Below are positions 15,179 through 23,957 of a DNA stretch of 64,000 nt, piece by piece; position 1 is the stretch's first letter, and each line of letters starts with the position of its first letter. Position numbers and translations under genes: made by a program. Source of the DNA: Anatilimnocola floriformis. GTDB lineage: Bacteria; Planctomycetota; Planctomycetia; Pirellulales; Pirellulaceae. The stretch spans positions 3,844,001 through 3,908,000 of the forward strand of contig NZ_JAMLFW010000001.1 of the NCBI RefSeq assembly GCF_024256385.1, written 5' to 3'. The notes under the pieces are model-generated. The model made no database searches. It was not told where the DNA came from and was given only the letters and a program-made list of their open reading frames with translations.

Positions 15179-15205
15179 GTCATCCGGGTAACCAGATCGG
15201 ATGAC
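15179..15205. promoter_or_regulatory. dyad overlapping recombinase start codon
   Basis: GTCATCCG (15179-15186) and CGGATGAC (15198-15205) are perfect inverted repeats with an 11-base spacer; the right arm contains the ATG at 15201. A protein bound here, or an mRNA hairpin, would block translation initiation of the recombinase. Confidence 0.5.
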
Positions 15206-16172
15206 CGGCATGACCGAGTTATTGAATGTTAAGAACGGGAAACCTTCGGCGAACTTGGCGATTCCGCCGCTGATCGCGACCGCCGGCGACGCCGCGGCCA
15301 TTCGATTCCTGGAATTTTTCGCCGCCAGCATCCGCAATCGCGGCACGCGTAAGGTGTACGCCCAGGCCATCGGTCGTTTCTTCAGCTGGTGCGAGTCCCA
15401 GTCGATTTCTCTTACGTCGGTCAAGCCGCTCGTCGTGGCGACCTACATCGAGCAGCTTGCGTTTCACCTGCAGTCGCCGACGGTGAAGCTTCACCTAGCC
15501 GCCATTCGATCGCTTTTCGATTACCTCGTTACCGGACAAATCGTTCCTTTTAATCCGGCGGCTTCGGTCCGCGGTCCGAAGCACGTCGTACGCAAGGGAA
15601 AAACACCGGTACTGATTGCGGCCGATGCCCGCATCCTTCTCGATTCGATCGAAACTGACACCCTCATTGGCCTTCGCGACCGAGCTCTCATCGGGACGAT
15701 GGTTTATAGTTTTGCCAGAGTCTCGGCAACGGTCGGAATGGATGTGGAAGACTATTTTTCGCAGGGGCGGCGAATGTGGTTTCGCCTGCACGAGAAAGGT
15801 GGCAAGCATCACGAAGTTCCTGCGCATCACAAGGCCGAAGAATACTTGGACGCCTATCTCGCGGCAGCAATGCTAGAACCCAACTCGCCGCTCTTCCGCA
15901 CGGTCAGCAAATCGGGCGCGCTCACGTCTCGCCGGATGCATCGCACCGATTCCCTGCGAATGGTGAAGCGACGTGCATTGGCCGCCGGTTTGGCGTCCAA
16001 CACGTGCAATCACACGTTTCGAGCAACAGGTATCACTGCATATCTGACCAATGGCGGTTTGCTAGAGCATGCTCAGCAGATTGCCGCCCACGAATCGCCG
16101 CGATCCACCAAGCTCTACGATCGTACGAGCGACGCGATCAGCCTGGATGAGATCGAACGAATCATCCTTTGA
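15201..16172 (+). CDS. tyrosine recombinase (XerD-like)
   Basis: 323 aa. Residues about 30-130 are the SAM-like core-binding domain (SIRNRGTRKVYAQAIGRFFS). The catalytic domain shows the Arg in SFARVSATVGM, a Lys strand (LHEKGGKHHEVP), the H-x-x-R box in HTFRATGI, the late His in IAAHESPRST and the nucleophile Tyr in KLYDRT. ATG 15210 is an alternative start. It probably resolves multimers of the element or shuffles a cassette; unlike the integrase at 36022 it is far from the tRNA. The two dyads upstream are candidate substrate and operator. Confidence 0.9.
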   Translation: MTGMTELLNVKNGKPSANLAIPPLIATAGDAAAIRFLEFFAASIRNRGTRKVYAQAIGRFFSWCESQSISLTSVKPLVVATYIEQLAFHLQSPTVKLHLAAIRSLFDYLVTGQIVPFNPAASVRGPKHVVRKGKTPVLIAADARILLDSIETDTLIGLRDRALIGTMVYSFARVSATVGMDVEDYFSQGRRMWFRLHEKGGKHHEVPAHHKAEEYLDAYLAAAMLEPNSPLFRTVSKSGALTSRRMHRTDSLRMVKRRALAAGLASNTCNHTFRATGITAYLTNGGLLEHAQQIAAHESPRSTKLYDRTSDAISLDEIERIIL

Positions 16173-16599
16173 GCGGCGACGTGCGGGCCGGCAGTTCGAT
16201 CGATGTCACGATCGGGTAGAACTTCGCTGTCTCCAACGCTTGGGCTCGCGTCGCTTCGACAATCTCGGCAGCCCGGTGCCGGCAAACAGTCTCGAACAGA
16301 ATTGCCAAATTCTGTCCCCGAACGACGACCGTTTTGGCCGCCGAATAGGTCACGGTGAAGCCTTCGTTCGGATTGTCCGATTCAACGCTAAACAGATGCG
16401 TGTAACTGTAGGCGTGGGCCGCGCCGCTGGCCTTGCGAAAGACCAGGCTCAGCTGAGCACGATTACCAATCCGGCCGTTGGCCAAAGCCGCATATTCTTC
16501 AGGCTCCACGGCCTCAGCGTCGACGACTTCGGCTGAGTCTGACTTATTGGGTTTACGTTCCAGCAGATCCCGAATCGCAGTGGAAACGTTATCGACCAT
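16162..16599 (-). CDS. hypothetical protein coupled to relaxase
   Basis: 145 aa. The start at 16599 overlaps the end of the relaxase gene by 11 bp, so it is translated from the same mRNA. The middle contains a compact beta-rich section (LSLVFRKASGAAHAYSYTHL) with two Tyr/His clusters. The C-terminus overlaps the convergent recombinase gene by 11 bp. No known domain; it may be a relaxosome accessory factor by position only. Confidence 0.55.
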   Translation of the reverse strand: MVDNVSTAIRDLLERKPNKSDSAEVVDAEAVEPEEYAALANGRIGNRAQLSLVFRKASGAAHAYSYTHLFSVESDNPNEGFTVTYSAAKTVVVRGQNLAILFETVCRHRAAEIVEATRAQALETAKFYPIVTSIELPARTSPLKG

Positions 16600-19231
16600 A
16601 GACCATCTCCCATCGTCTTTCAGGTACGCGCGCCGCTGTCTCCTGACGGCGAATCAGCTCTTGTCGCGCCGCATGTAGCCGCCTCAATTCTCCGTTTTGA
16701 GTTCCACCTTCAAGTAAGCTGGAAGCGCTTACGCGGTCGCTGCTGCGATGCACTGCGACCTTGAACGCTTCTTTGTCGTCGACGTAGATACGCATACCTT
16801 TGCGGCCTCGCGACGCGGAAACGTAAAGTTGCTCCGCACTCGCCGCGCCAAAGGCCGCCGAAGGTTCTGCGATCAAGACGCGATCGACTGTCTTCCCCTG
16901 GCTACTATGACTCGTCGATACATAGCCAGGTGCCCACATCCCAAAGTCCCTGCTCACTGTCCATCCATTGTCCAACTTCACGTCGCCCTCAGCCGTGATA
17001 CCGGCCACTCGATAGTGCGACCCATTGTTGAGACGATGCCCGTCTTTAGTCGTGCCGTTCGCGGTGATCCGAAGCAATTCATGAGTTGCGACGGGCATTT
17101 CCGTCGCATGGTAAACCTGAAAATGGGAAGCCTGCCGAAGCAACGCTTCGCTTGGTTGCTCGGTCAACGTCAGGCGAGTTCCCTTCGGGTAACCGGTTGC
17201 GTTTTGATGGAAGACAATGACGTCGCCGGCTGAATAGGACGCTGAATCGCGGCGCTCGGCTTCCGTGAGATGCAGAGGGATGAGCCGCAAGAGCGATTCA
17301 TCCTTGCAGCCAAGCTGACCTTGCTCCTTCAACTCGGAGCGGATCGCGCGGCTGACTCGCTCTCCTTCGCTATGCGTTGGACAGACGACCAAGACCGATT
17401 CGCCACCCCGTACGGCCGCGACGTAGTCGTGAGCGATGACCATATTGCGGTGGCCATCATCAAGCTCCCTCACCCAGCCGAGTTGATCGGCCCGGTCGAT
17501 TGCAGGAGCAATCTGCCCTTCGGCGATCATGTCCACAATGGCCCGGTATTCGAGAGGCTCTTGTCGCAAATTTTGCCGGACCGACGCGGGCCGAAGGCCT
17601 GCCTCTTGTTCCAAAAGACGCAACGCAGCACCGCGTTCGACGCTGCCGTGCTGTGTCCAATCGCCGGACAGCACCACGCGGCAATCAAGTTGCTGCGCCA
17701 GGTCGAAAACTTTTTTCAGCGTGCGGGTTCCCAACAAGCCGGCTTCATCGATCCACACGACGTGGCCGGCCGAGTCCCGTTGGAGTTGTTGATTGACCAG
17801 CAATTCTGAAACCGTGGTTGCCCCCGCGAAGCCTTCTCGACTGAGAACGCCGCGGCTAGCTTCCGCAGACGGAGCGAATGTGAACACTCGATGGCCGCCC
17901 GCTTCAATGCCGGCAACCGCTTCCTGCATCAGACTGGTTTTGCCGGTGCCGGCGCGGCCCCGCACGATTTGAACGGCGTCGGTACTGGTAAGTACCCTTC
18001 GCACCGCATCTTGCTGATCCTGGTTCAGCCACTGCCGTTGGATCTTCCAATTGCCATTAAGCGCGGCGGCCGTGCCCCGGCCAGCCTTAGCATAGCGAAT
18101 GAGGGACTTTTCCTCTGACAAAACCTCTCGCGTGGTCGCCAGTTTGCGGCCGCGATAATCCCCTTCAATCAGGTCCCTAGCGGCCATGGCGCGTTTGACG
18201 CCATTTACATTCACCTGGCCGACGCCGCGGCGAAACGCTTCCTGCAAGAGGTCTTTCACGGCGACGACGGAATTTCGCTCAAAACAATGGGCGACTGCGT
18301 GGTCCGCCCATTGGCCATCGTTCGACTGGCCCTGGCTCCACGCTACCGCAGAGGGAACTGTCGCGATCGCTTTTTGCTCATCGGCCGAAAGCCGCTCCTT
18401 CCAAAGCTCGCGGAGTTCCGGCAGTGTGTGTTCTTCGGATTTGCTCTGGCGTGATTTCGCGCCGAGTTGACTCTTGGCAGCGGGGTTCGAGATTCCCTTC
18501 TCTTCCGCCATTTTTTCAATCAACTGCGTCCGCCGCGAGTAGCGCGCGGTGACTTCGGGCTTCACGTGGGACAGGTCCCAGTCCTTGCCACGGCGTTCTA
18601 CGCCGTAGCCGAGGTTTTGCAGACGTTCAGCGAAGCGCGCATGAAATGCCGCTTCAAAATATCGCGCGTCGCGCTTCAAATCGCGGAACTGGCCCGCTTT
18701 CCAACGCTCTTCGTCCGCATCAAAAGTAGCGTTGAACGTGAAGCAGTGAGCGTGCAAATGCGGATCGGGAACCCCGTCGACAGGTCGCGCGGTGAAGTGC
18801 ACGAACTCCGCCCAGCAAAGATTGCCCGTAGTGCGCTCTTCGTCGCGGCCTTTGCCCCTCACCCGTGTTTTCGCTTCCTCTTCTAACTCGCTCATCGTCT
18901 CTTCAATGCTCGTGCGGAACGCATCGAGAATTCGCTCATCGCGAGTGAGCGAGTAGGCTAACGATACGCCCTTGGGCGCGTTGAACACAAAGTCGTAACC
19001 AACCGTCCGATCGGTGTCCTGGCGAGCGGTCAGCCGACGCAAGGTGCCGGGATGCAAATTATCGCACAGGGCGTCGAATTCTCGCTTGCCCACTTCGCCC
19101 GACAAGCCGAGCGCAGCAGCCCCCTTCCCGCCCCATTGGCCGACCAGTTCTTGGCCTTCCGAATAGTAGTCGGCTTTCGAGTAGTAACTCTGGGCGCCGG
19201 CCGCGCTGCGATTTTGCACGATGCGAAGCAT
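16589..19231 (-). CDS. MobF-family conjugative relaxase-helicase (TrwC/TraI type)
   Basis: 880 aa from ATG 19231 (MobF proteins start with Met-Leu; a TTG at 19249 is less likely). The relaxase domain has tyrosine pairs at 16/17 and 22/23 and the metal-binding three-His motif PHLHAH at 157-162. The helicase half has Walker A GRAGTGKT and Walker B WIDEAGLLG, then RecD-like motifs to the C-terminus (HSSQGKTVDRV, YVSASRGRKG). It nicks oriT, stays bound to the 5' end and unwinds the transferred strand. Slightly shorter than TrwC (966 aa). Works with the coupling protein at 7270. Confidence 0.93.
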   Translation of the reverse strand: MLRIVQNRSAAGAQSYYSKADYYSEGQELVGQWGGKGAAALGLSGEVGKREFDALCDNLHPGTLRRLTARQDTDRTVGYDFVFNAPKGVSLAYSLTRDERILDAFRTSIEETMSELEEEAKTRVRGKGRDEERTTGNLCWAEFVHFTARPVDGVPDPHLHAHCFTFNATFDADEERWKAGQFRDLKRDARYFEAAFHARFAERLQNLGYGVERRGKDWDLSHVKPEVTARYSRRTQLIEKMAEEKGISNPAAKSQLGAKSRQSKSEEHTLPELRELWKERLSADEQKAIATVPSAVAWSQGQSNDGQWADHAVAHCFERNSVVAVKDLLQEAFRRGVGQVNVNGVKRAMAARDLIEGDYRGRKLATTREVLSEEKSLIRYAKAGRGTAAALNGNWKIQRQWLNQDQQDAVRRVLTSTDAVQIVRGRAGTGKTSLMQEAVAGIEAGGHRVFTFAPSAEASRGVLSREGFAGATTVSELLVNQQLQRDSAGHVVWIDEAGLLGTRTLKKVFDLAQQLDCRVVLSGDWTQHGSVERGAALRLLEQEAGLRPASVRQNLRQEPLEYRAIVDMIAEGQIAPAIDRADQLGWVRELDDGHRNMVIAHDYVAAVRGGESVLVVCPTHSEGERVSRAIRSELKEQGQLGCKDESLLRLIPLHLTEAERRDSASYSAGDVIVFHQNATGYPKGTRLTLTEQPSEALLRQASHFQVYHATEMPVATHELLRITANGTTKDGHRLNNGSHYRVAGITAEGDVKLDNGWTVSRDFGMWAPGYVSTSHSSQGKTVDRVLIAEPSAAFGAASAEQLYVSASRGRKGMRIYVDDKEAFKVAVHRSSDRVSASSLLEGGTQNGELRRLHAARQELIRRQETAARVPERRWEMVYGR

Positions 19232-19284
19232 GTGCAACCAATAGCGCAATCGCGAAATTCAGCAACTCAATTTACTGGCTGCCC

Positions 19285-19375: not shown

Positions 19376-20251
19376 TCATTCGACGAACTCGTTTCCAGTA
19401 ACGCCGATCTTCCCGGCCTTGCACCAGTCGCACCAATAGCCGATGCGCTCGCGTAGGAACGCAGCCCGTTCCTGCGAAATGTTGGGATTAGCATCGATCG
19501 CTTCCTCCAGACCGGTATAGGACGACAGGTGCTTCGCGTTGGCCGGACGCAAGCCGAAGGTCTCCGGCACTGCAATGACCTTGAACTTTCCAGAACCGGT
19601 GGCCTTCACGGTCACCGCCAACTTTCGGCTTTCGTCAGGACACAAGCGATCAAACGACATCAGATCTTCATCATCGCCCAGCAAGTTGCTGCGAAGCTTA
19701 GTCAGCTCCTGATCAGTCTCGAATTCCGCTCGTCGGCCGTATACGAGCAAAAAATGGTAGCCCATTTGGTAGAAGCCGGCCGCCGACGGCGCGACGCCGT
19801 AATCCGCGACAAATTTCAATTGATTGGTGGGTTCCTTGAGCCAAGTCTTCCACTCTGCCAATTGATTCCTCGCCTGCGTGAAATCGGCGGTGGGCCGCTT
19901 CGCCGCTGTGAATAGCCGCTTCGCTGGTCGTTCAATCTCGACCATCGCGGGATACCAGTTATCGCTGTGCTTCGAGAGCCACATGAAATCCGGAATGTGA
20001 CCGTTGAAGCCATGCAACGGCGGCTGGGAAATGACCGCCATGTGAAGCGGCCAGTGTCCGGAGGTTCCGCAAGGCGTGCGCGACCCGGGAACCATTGAGG
20101 GATTCTGTTCGAGAAACTTCTGCAGTTCCGATTCCTGCGGGTCCTGGGCGAGCAAGGCGGCATATTCAGCCGAAATGCGGTCGGCGTAGTCCGAAAAGGA
20201 GGGAACTTCTGGACCACGTTTCTGTTGATAAGTTCTGGCGAGCGGCGACAT
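19376..20251 (-). CDS. Shedu-family (DUF4263) PD-(D/E)xK nuclease
   Basis: 291 aa from ATG 20251 (an in-frame Met at 20353 adds a poor leader). The segment ELQKFLEQNPSMVPG, then PDFMWL, VEIERPAKRLF and QARNQLAEWKTWL follows the SduA/DUF4263 pattern: acidic residue in PDF, E-x-E in the core strand, and the conserved Gln helix of a restriction-endonuclease fold. Shedu proteins are single-gene anti-phage systems that cut invading DNA. The gene lies between the relaxase and ardC, so it is carried by the element; it may protect the host against rivals of the plasmid. Confidence 0.75.
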   Translation of the reverse strand: MSPLARTYQQKRGPEVPSFSDYADRISAEYAALLAQDPQESELQKFLEQNPSMVPGSRTPCGTSGHWPLHMAVISQPPLHGFNGHIPDFMWLSKHSDNWYPAMVEIERPAKRLFTAAKRPTADFTQARNQLAEWKTWLKEPTNQLKFVADYGVAPSAAGFYQMGYHFLLVYGRRAEFETDQELTKLRSNLLGDDEDLMSFDRLCPDESRKLAVTVKATGSGKFKVIAVPETFGLRPANAKHLSSYTGLEEAIDANPNISQERAAFLRERIGYWCDWCKAGKIGVTGNEFVE

Positions 20252-20581
20252 GGTTCGATCCGTGGGGTGAGTCCCTGTGCAGGGCGCGTGACACGCAAAG
20301 TGATATCGTCTCGCGAAGGAAACATACGCAAGGCGAGGGAGCGTGTCGTCCACTCGTGGCGATCAGGCAAGCTGTATGAGCGGGGAGTGCGGTTCGTAAG
20401 GGAGTCGGCAAACGTAACTGCACCCGGCGTGTCCGCCGCCGCGTGCTACCGGACTCCGCGTTCGCTGCGGTCGCAGCAGCGACAGGCTATCGCCTTCCGT
20501 CCGCCCGCTGGTGCTTCCGGCGCTGCCGGTAATTGCCGCCGAAGGCGCAGTGAAACTTGAGTGGGGAGCATCCCCCAGGCC

Positions 20582-20698
20582 GTCAAGGACAAGACAAGCG
20601 GCCTGCACGGCACCTCCCCAATCTTCCGCACTCGCGAGTACGCGTGCTTCGCAACGTTTGTGCAGACCGGGTGCCCCTCCCCTCCGGCCGTCCTTGAC
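20582..20698. ncRNA. candidate structured RNA element upstream of ardC
   Basis: GTCAAGGAC (20582-20590) pairs perfectly with GTCCTTGAC (20690-20698), enclosing GCGGCC (20598-20603)/GGCC (20686-20689), GGCACC (20609-20614)/GGTGCC (20670-20675) and TGCAC (20604-20608)/GTGCA (20660-20664); the last two pairings cross, implying a pseudoknot or alternative folds. A perfect palindrome ACTCGCGAGT is in the loop. The 540 bp between the Shedu start and ardC hold no convincing gene. Strand is not known; on the plus strand it ends 32 bp before a terminator-like hairpin. Confidence 0.4.
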
Positions 20699-20729
20699 TG
20701 CCTGTCCCCTCGATTCGTGGTCTTTCGAC

Positions 20730-20766
20730 CCCCGCCGCTCAAGGAAAGAGCGCGGGGCTCTTTTCA
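20730..20766 (+). terminator. terminator-like hairpin before ardC
   Basis: CCCCGCCGCTC (20730-20740), seven-base loop, GAGCGCGGGG (20748-20757), one bulged base, then CTCTTTT. It ends 25 bp before the ardC start, so it either terminates an upstream RNA or acts as an attenuator in the ardC leader. Confidence 0.65.
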
Positions 20767-20791: not shown

Positions 20792-21697
20792 ATGAGCACT
20801 TCCACCACCACCAAGCGAGCCGACGTCTACACTCGCGTCACTGATCGAATTGTTGCCGAGCTTGAGGCGGGCGTCCGGCCCTGGCTCAAGCCTTGGAACG
20901 CCGAACATGCTGCCGGCAGAATCACCCGGCCGTTGCGGTTTAATGGACAACGCTATCAGGGAATCAACATTCTGATGCTATGGGCCGAGGCAGAAACCCG
21001 CGGTTATAGCTGCCCAATCTGGATGACCTATCAGCAGGCGACGGAATTTGGCGGGCACGTCCGCAAAGGCGAACGCGGAGCACCGGTCGTTTATGCTTCC
21101 AAATTCAGCAAGACGGAAGCGGGCGATAACGGCCAGGACGTTGAACGCGAAATTCCCTTCCTCAAGGAATACACCGTCTTCAATGTCGAGCAATGCGAGA
21201 ACCTGCCCGACTGGTATTACCAGCTCAAGGAACCGCCGAAGGAGCAGCTGCAGCGGATCGAGCGGGCAGACCAATTCTTCGCCAACACCAAGGCGGAGAT
21301 TCGCACGGGGGGCAATCAGGCTTATTACGCGATCGGCAGCGATCACATTCAGATGCCGCCTTTTCAAAGTTTTCGGGATGCTGAATCGCACGCGACGACG
21401 CTGGCTCACGAACTGACGCACTGGACGCGGCACGGCTCGCGGCTGAATCGCGAGTTTGGCCGCAAACGCTTTGGCGATGAGGGCTATGCGATGGAGGAAC
21501 TCGTCGCCGAGCTAGGAGCGGCGTTTCTGTCCGCTGATCTTCGTCTTACGCCGGAAGTGCGGGAGGATCACGCCGATTACGTTGCCAACTGGTTGAAGGT
21601 ACTGAAGGACGACAAGCGGGCGATCTTTACGGCCGCCTCGCACGCCAGCCGGGCGGCCGAGTATCTGCACTTCTTTCAGCCGCAGCCTGCTGCCTGA
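20792..21697 (+). CDS. ardC: ArdC-type antirestriction protein (ssDNA-binding + zincin)
   Basis: 301 aa from ATG 20792 with AAAGGAG upstream. Residues about 1-125 are the ArdC-like ssDNA-binding domain (LEAGVRPWLKPW; PLRFNGQRYQGIN; EFGGHVRKGERG). Residues about 180-300 are an MPTase-PolyVal zinc metallopeptidase with LAHELTHWTRH (HExxH). The family protects incoming single-stranded plasmid DNA from restriction after transfer. It is flanked by terminator hairpins on both sides, so it is likely a single-gene unit; its long leader with potential RNA structure is unusual. Confident by both domains. Confidence 0.9.
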   Translation: MSTSTTTKRADVYTRVTDRIVAELEAGVRPWLKPWNAEHAAGRITRPLRFNGQRYQGINILMLWAEAETRGYSCPIWMTYQQATEFGGHVRKGERGAPVVYASKFSKTEAGDNGQDVEREIPFLKEYTVFNVEQCENLPDWYYQLKEPPKEQLQRIERADQFFANTKAEIRTGGNQAYYAIGSDHIQMPPFQSFRDAESHATTLAHELTHWTRHGSRLNREFGRKRFGDEGYAMEELVAELGAAFLSADLRLTPEVREDHADYVANWLKVLKDDKRAIFTAASHASRAAEYLHFFQPQPAA

Positions 21698-23416: not shown

Positions 23417-23723
23417 TTCTCCTTAGAACAACCCATCCCAGGCGGTCAACATATTTCGACGCTTACGGTGCCTGCATGGCCGCGATGACGGCGATTCATC
23501 GCAATTTGACTTGGTTTTGCGGACACACCCCGGCCTTTATTTCCAGCACGCTAAAGCCGCCACCGGGCTTGGCAAGCAGAAAATCGGCTCCCCCTGAAGG
23601 TCGCCCCCAATTTTCAGCTTGCCCAGGTCACTCGCCAAGGCTCGCCCCGGCTCACAGCGGCTTTGGTCGTCGTGCTGTAAAGGCCGCGATGGGCGTGGCC
23701 CCAAACCAAGAAAGGAATTGCAA
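23417..23723. other. 307-bp gap, no supported gene
   Basis: Contains a GGCCGCGATGGGCGTGGCC imperfect hairpin at about 23683-23702, just before the small gene at 23724, and nothing else that reads as a gene. Confidence 0.4.
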
Positions 23724-23930
23724 ATGACTGAATCAACAGAAAACTCCGGCGGCAAGGCACCCTCCTTAATTGCCTACCAAGTGCGTGACCGCGAAGGCAA
23801 GAAAGGCTTCTTCACCAGAATCGGGGCGGCCTGGCCCCACGGCGATGGGCAGGGATTCAATATCCAACTGGACTCGATCCCGCTCGACGGCCGAATCACG
23901 CTTCGCAACGCGAGCGAAACGAAGGAATAG
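23724..23930 (+). CDS. small hypothetical protein, 68 aa
   Basis: AAAGGAA sits seven bases before ATG 23724. The sequence reads as a compact beta-sheet protein: VRDREGKKGFFTRIGAAWPH, then GQGFNIQLDSIPLDGRI. I recall proteins of this form in cargo segments of proteobacterial plasmids, where they are very common and uncharacterised. It is followed by a UUCG-tetraloop hairpin. Confidence 0.75.
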   Translation: MTESTENSGGKAPSLIAYQVRDREGKKGFFTRIGAAWPHGDGQGFNIQLDSIPLDGRITLRNASETKE

Positions 23931-23937
23931 ATCACCA

Positions 23938-23957
23938 GGGCGGGCTTCGGCCCGCCC
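23938..23957 (+). terminator. TTCG-tetraloop hairpin
   Basis: GGGCGGGC (23938-23945), TTCG, GCCCGCCC (23950-23957): perfect 8-bp stem with an extra-stable loop but no T run. It separates two small genes and may stabilise the upstream mRNA or slow polymerase. Confidence 0.6.

Follow-up and report, generated by a model that had tools for sequence, protein, structure and literature searches.

A structured, apparently undescribed element that folds on the strand antisense to ardC and other probable establishment genes in mobile DNA of Planctomycetes and Proteobacteria

The locus and its structured region

The window analysed here, a 64,000-nt stretch of a planctomycete chromosome (G000:C1:3844001-3908000), carries a plasmid-like mobile element that includes an integrase gene (15201-16172), ParA and RepA genes and, on the minus strand, genes for the MOBF relaxase TrwC (16589-19249) and for a Shedu-like defence protein with an SduA C-terminal domain (19376-20353). 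On the plus strand, ardC (20792-21697) encodes a protein with the Pfam ArdcN and MPTase-PolyVal domains. A structured element lies between ardC and the Shedu-like gene, which separates it from the relaxase gene. Its conserved core, comprising helices P1, P2 and P3 and delimited by the covariance model R1 and by covariation, spans 20581-20699 and is read on the minus strand, which is the template for ardC; the gene starts 93 nt from the core. R1, which was built from 25 sequences with the window copy among them, matches the core over its full length at 88 bits.

The outermost helix, P1, is formed by arms that read GTCAAGGAC (20582-20590) and GTCCTTGAC (20690-20698) on the plus strand and that show compensatory changes in the family. 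As a sequence-only reading of this DNA had stated, the pairing is perfect over 9 bp and encloses 117 nt; the family consensus has 8 bp, and the ninth pair, 20590-20690, is possible in the window copy. P2, assigned to the minus strand from alignments (CGGCC, 20599-20603; GGCCG, 20686-20690), is weak in the window copy, which has about 5 of the 12 family pairs in a row. P3, assigned from the strand comparison of wobbles described below, has arms reading CCCAATCT (20617-20624) and AGACCGGG (20664-20671) on the plus strand; on the minus strand, AGATTGGG pairs with CCCGGTCT with two G-T wobbles, which would be A-C mismatches were the plus strand to fold.

Further hairpins flank the core. On the left, a G-tract/C-tract hairpin, P0 (GGGG AGCAT CCCC, 20563-20576, minus strand), is present in most homologues, and on the ardC side the form of a small minus-strand hairpin, P5 (GGTC-TTTC-GACC, or GGTC-GAAA-GACC on the minus strand, 20719-20730), is likewise kept in most of them. 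The sequence-only reading had also placed a terminator-like hairpin between the segment and ardC, and one is found there: a GC-rich plus-strand hairpin (20730-20757) with a short T tract; the hairpin and the CTCTTTTC that follows it span 20730-20765. One terminator-like site (20743-20765) was scored, compared with 0.4 expected in shuffled sequences, and T tracts occur at the same place in several homologues. Judged by the E. coli consensus only, no sigma-70-like promoter was found above shuffled frequency on the plus strand upstream of ardC.

Two other roles for the region were considered and rejected. Protein coding on the minus strand was discarded by inspection, as differences in length do not keep the frame and the two arms of P2 covary. 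A leader of the relaxase mRNA was discarded because TrwC genes have apparent -10-like boxes by their start codons and because the genes to the left frequently lie on the opposite strand.

Elsewhere in the window, a second type of structured element lies at 23521-23700 on the minus strand. It reads GGCCACGCCCATCGCGGCC ... AAAGCCGC ... GCGGCTTT and contains an inner hairpin formed by GAAAATTGG and CCGATTTTC; the small gene downstream of it, on the plus strand (23724-23930), had no Pfam match. Relatives of this second type occur between TrwC and a small gene in loci L020, L086, L091, L092 and L111. In addition, a weak motif, CCAAGTGTC[C/T], recurs in a number of loci at about 200 nt before TrwC (CCAAGTGTCTAATA in the window, in the TrwC sense) and might be a nic site.

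A conserved fold on the strand antisense to ardC

Folded alone, the sequence is ordinary. Comparison with shuffled sequence, suggested by the sequence-only reading, lent no support: the whole 176 nt gave z = -0.08, a stability equalled or bettered by 81 of 200 shuffles. For the 117-nt segment, single-sequence folding gave z = -0.92 on the plus strand and z = -2.52 on the minus strand, and over 53 homologues the minimum free energy z-scores were about equal on both strands, near -2.2, so that energy picks no strand.

Comparison among homologues nevertheless places the element in a strongly conserved structured family. In 55 planctomycete copies the covariation score is 0.329, compared with 0.096 in shuffled alignments, and none of 500 shuffles reached 0.329; both sides changed in 19 of 28 pairs and 93.2% of cells pair. 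Covariation and conservation are thus present upstream of other ardC genes, where the sequence-only reading had proposed to look for them. Although the R1 alignment is biased toward its own structure, a MAFFT alignment of 25 copies gave the same covariation picture, and RNAalifold, run unguided, arrived at P1, P3 and the greater part of P2. Another set, of 20 distinct and almost exclusively proteobacterial sequences, scored 0.472 versus 0.130 shuffled. In our judgement it is nearly certain that a conserved folded cis element exists.

In the family architecture on the minus strand, P1 has 8-9 bp and leads through a bulge of about 11 nt into P2, which reaches up to 12 bp and is the strongest covarying helix of the family; beyond it come a G-rich internal loop with AGGGGCA opposite GAGG, P3 (consensus CCCGGUCU/AGAUYGGG) and a variable tip. 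Flanking hairpins recur on either side of the core in homologues. Of the closing pair and the nested and crossing helices that had been described from the sequence alone, the outer pair corresponds to P1, but the conserved P2 and P3 differ from the plus-strand folds and form best on the minus strand.

Since a G-U pair on one strand is an A-C mismatch on the other, wobbles reveal which strand folds. In Planctomycetes, G-U versus A-C counts favoured the strand antisense to ardC by 54:11 and then by 100:19; in Proteobacteria, the count was 41:2, again in favour of the gene's antisense strand. For P3 by itself the count was 63:0, in which many cells share ancestry. These comparisons show that the folded strand is antisense to ardC, that is, the template strand of the downstream gene, and this polarity relative to the gene is constant in every copy with an assignable gene.

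How do these counts bear on what the element might be? The sequence-only reading had favoured a structured leader, possibly an attenuator, in the ardC mRNA, and a location ahead of the gene, separated from it by a terminator-like hairpin, would suit such a role. A conserved structured element does lie there, but its fold is on the antisense strand, with G-U pairs tolerated on that strand and rarely on the mRNA strand (as the P3 and proteobacterial counts illustrate), and the element is found in front of unrelated genes as well and is retained in places without ardC. We therefore disfavour an attenuator in the ardC mRNA and regard it as very improbable.

The same reading had offered a small RNA as its other possibility. 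A small RNA antisense to ardC, with its 5′ end near ardC and running away from the gene, would account for the RNA-like covariation and the many G-U pairs on the antisense strand, as well as for copies that have no neighbouring gene. However, sigma-70-like promoters are not enriched upstream on that strand (4%, versus 7% of shuffles, at a threshold of 9 of 12 matches), homologues have no consistent terminator, and the near-constant spacing to unrelated start codons would go unexplained. On balance we consider an antisense RNA unlikely.

Copies, neighbouring genes and the transferred strand

The same genome contains a second copy, 85% identical, upstream of another ardC. A sequence pattern search of GTDB contigs returned 26 stretches, about 18 of which were clearly the element by inspection, mostly planctomycete or unplaced. 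R1 detected the element in 18 of the 396 genomes from the order and in five more from the phylum sample; some positive genomes carry two to six copies. Such patchy spread fits mobile DNA. Plasmid carriers include Thiothrix, Defluviicoccus and Paludisphaera. Distant blastn searches of PLSDB matched 74, 87 and 72 records with Thiothrix, Defluviicoccus and Tardibacter queries, respectively (overlapping sets), mainly from Alphaproteobacteria and also from Thiothrix, Sedimenticola, Nitrosospira and Desulfovibrio; single plasmids matched at as many as six places. Same-strand copies number four in the Tardibacter plasmid, three each in those of P. aestuarii and Thiothrix and two in that of Sedimenticola, and copies within one plasmid can be near-identical despite unrelated downstream genes. 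The element is therefore common to Planctomycetes and Proteobacteria. Phage records gave no match, and IMG/VR gave one match to the planctomycete pattern and none to the proteobacterial pattern. No Rfam 15 family matched over the element at gathering score, with nothing credible at E values up to 5, and the open-access literature searched, with subscription journals outside its scope, held no prior description. The element thus appears to represent a widespread and undescribed family of structured cis-elements.

In 41 of the 55 planctomycete copies, an ardC gene on the opposite strand has its start at a distance of 89-181 nt. Two copies have ardC remnants downstream and one (L118) a different small gene; other copies lie in plasmid-like regions without a close gene. 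In plasmid records, where the carriers are conjugative or mobilisable plasmids, the downstream genes encode ArdC, DUF3768, DUF2958, DUF4942 operons, an N6-methylase and TraC primase, all with the same polarity and with start codons usually about 70-190 nt away; in Desulfovibrio pDFE, the nearest annotated downstream gene encodes SSB and lies at a distance of about 300 nt. The element is therefore not specific to ardC.

Two of these loci have further features. The L118 copy (1533-1617), upstream of its non-ardC gene, combines a type-II-like scaffold with a type-I core, as if modules had been swapped. In a Thiothrix plasmid, a gene of the ProQ/FinO family of RNA chaperones (L120, 6430-6945) lies beyond the far side of one copy.

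In F and R388, the transferred strand (T-strand) is the strand antisense to the relaxase gene. Following this rule, and with tallies assembled by hand from match tables in which many plasmids are related, we assigned the T-strand of each carrier. The fold is on the inferred T-strand in Desulfovibrio, Sedimenticola, Tardibacter, P. aestuarii, S. yanoikuyae and Marinibacterium, in the leading-region copies of two Caulobacter plasmids and in at least seven further sphingomonad records. Most MOBP plasmids examined agree, with exceptions in three Proteobacteria lineages: the mobC-side copy in both Caulobacter plasmids (which in C. henricii adjoins a MerR-type gene), one locus common to four sphingomonad plasmids, and Lichenicola. 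In Planctomycetes, TrwC lies within 10 kb in 24 loci; in 22 of them it runs against ardC, or against the ardC-side direction, so that, if the geometry is like that of F and R388, the fold is predicted to lie on the non-transferred strand. T-strand polarity, as judged from these gene orientations, thus appears to be only a tendency. A search for oriT and nic sites showed that the position of the element relative to the relaxase varies and fixed no nic site, leaving the idea that the element is itself an oriT unsupported.

Comparison with known elements and possible function

Searches of F, R388 and pLS20 revealed no sequence homologue. Several plasmid elements resemble the new one in other respects. 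The single-strand promoters Frpo1 and Frpo2 of F and those of ColIb-P9 are non-coding, repeated and upstream of leading-region genes, and Frpo folds on the template strand of these genes with a proposed action at entry (PMC9849209; PMC11541004). The new element is likewise non-coding, repeated within plasmids, upstream of establishment genes and folded on their template strand. However, the Frpo stem reconstitutes -10 and -35 boxes, and we found none here: by the E. coli consensus only, no sigma-70-like pair occurs in the fold above shuffled frequency. Without such boxes the element cannot be classed as Frpo. The R1 search of the F leading region gave nothing convincing.

The closest analogue in layout is EGeRS1 of the Bacillus plasmid pLS20, which is GC-rich, contains multiple hairpins and lies just upstream of the ribosome binding sites of establishment genes, ardC among them; a plasmid carries several copies, which have no promoter and block read-through (PMC8708921). 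The terminator-like hairpin in front of ardC in the window could block read-through in a similar way. EGeRS1 differs in its length (400-600 bp), its sequence and its transferred strand, which is the non-template strand. Over positions 1-50000 of pLS20, R1 found no match better than E 0.76, and the strand test did not discriminate between the two strands of EGeRS1, whose copies are too alike.

Two further repeats show similarities. CUP elements of the IncN plasmid pKM101 are repeated upstream sequences that coordinate leading-region genes (PMC6289460, citing Delver and Belogurov, 1997); they contain ArdK binding sites, and one of them overlaps the ardK promoter region, whereas no promoter was found for the element reported here. 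In the R388 leading region (L135), a structured sequence is repeated at 19862-19951 and 23868-23957, with one copy upstream of ardC and identical R1 scores at the two places (14 bits, E 0.3). Its outer helix resembles P1, but the conserved core loops are absent, and it is probably a separate element.

What might the element do? Our leading explanation, which we hold with slightly less than even confidence, is that it represents a new family of establishment-gene control elements working like the Frpo/ssi single-strand promoters of F. The plasmid would enter the recipient as one DNA strand and its template strand would fold at the element, providing an entry point for RNA polymerase, or for a primase making a first RNA, so that ardC and similar genes could be read before second-strand synthesis. 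In double-stranded DNA the element would be silent, and the gene-proximal hairpin would block read-through. The placement before leading-region-type genes with the fold on their template strand is that expected of a Frpo/ssi single-strand promoter, and the near-constant distance to unrelated establishment genes, together with the template-strand fold, matches what such a promoter requires. The link to plasmid entry as single-stranded DNA, already drawn in the sequence-only reading, is plausible, although action as an attenuator is unsupported.

More specifically, and somewhat more tentatively, the copies could form a cross-phylum class of single-strand elements that lack boxes, start establishment-gene expression on the entering strand and are recognised through conserved G-rich and tip sequences. 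The sequences conserved on the folded strand are GGAGGGG, CTGCACAAG and GCGGAAG; their readers might be RNA polymerase, primase or an unknown factor. Against the proposed single-strand mechanism stand the box-less fold, the T-strand exceptions, the planctomycete relaxase orientation and the copies without genes.

Might the element instead act on double-stranded DNA or on transcripts, as an EGeRS1-like block to read-through that an entry signal relieves to permit expression, with no single-strand promoter? The shared layout (GC-rich, multi-hairpin, multi-copy, promoterless and before establishment genes; PMC8708921) and the terminator-like hairpin between core and gene speak for this, and the T-strand exceptions fit it better than they fit a single-strand promoter. 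Yet it explains neither why selection acts on an antisense-strand fold nor why, on MOBP plasmids, that fold tends to be on the T-strand, and we think it possible but rather doubtful.

It is also conceivable that the element is a site of single-strand initiation or primosome assembly that primes second-strand synthesis and has no direct role in expression. Rows of hairpins with invariant loops recall ssi and sso sites, and the homologues carry several such consecutive hairpins on one strand; copies without a nearby gene would also fit. The near-constant spacing to start codons argues against a priming site, as does a gene-relative polarity that is fixed even where T-strand polarity is reversed, which makes this role quite improbable.

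If the element does work as a single-strand control element, its folding may represent a type of switch not described before, one that controls genes read out before the incoming plasmid has become double-stranded; the plasmid probably requires these genes when it enters a new cell. The finding bears on early expression of establishment genes, those for anti-restriction included, by plasmids that do not belong to the enterobacterial F group: how such genes are expressed before host defences act becomes a testable question. The element also provides a searchable marker for establishment genes in plasmids of several phyla, by which the unnamed genes adjoining ardC can be grouped as candidate establishment factors.
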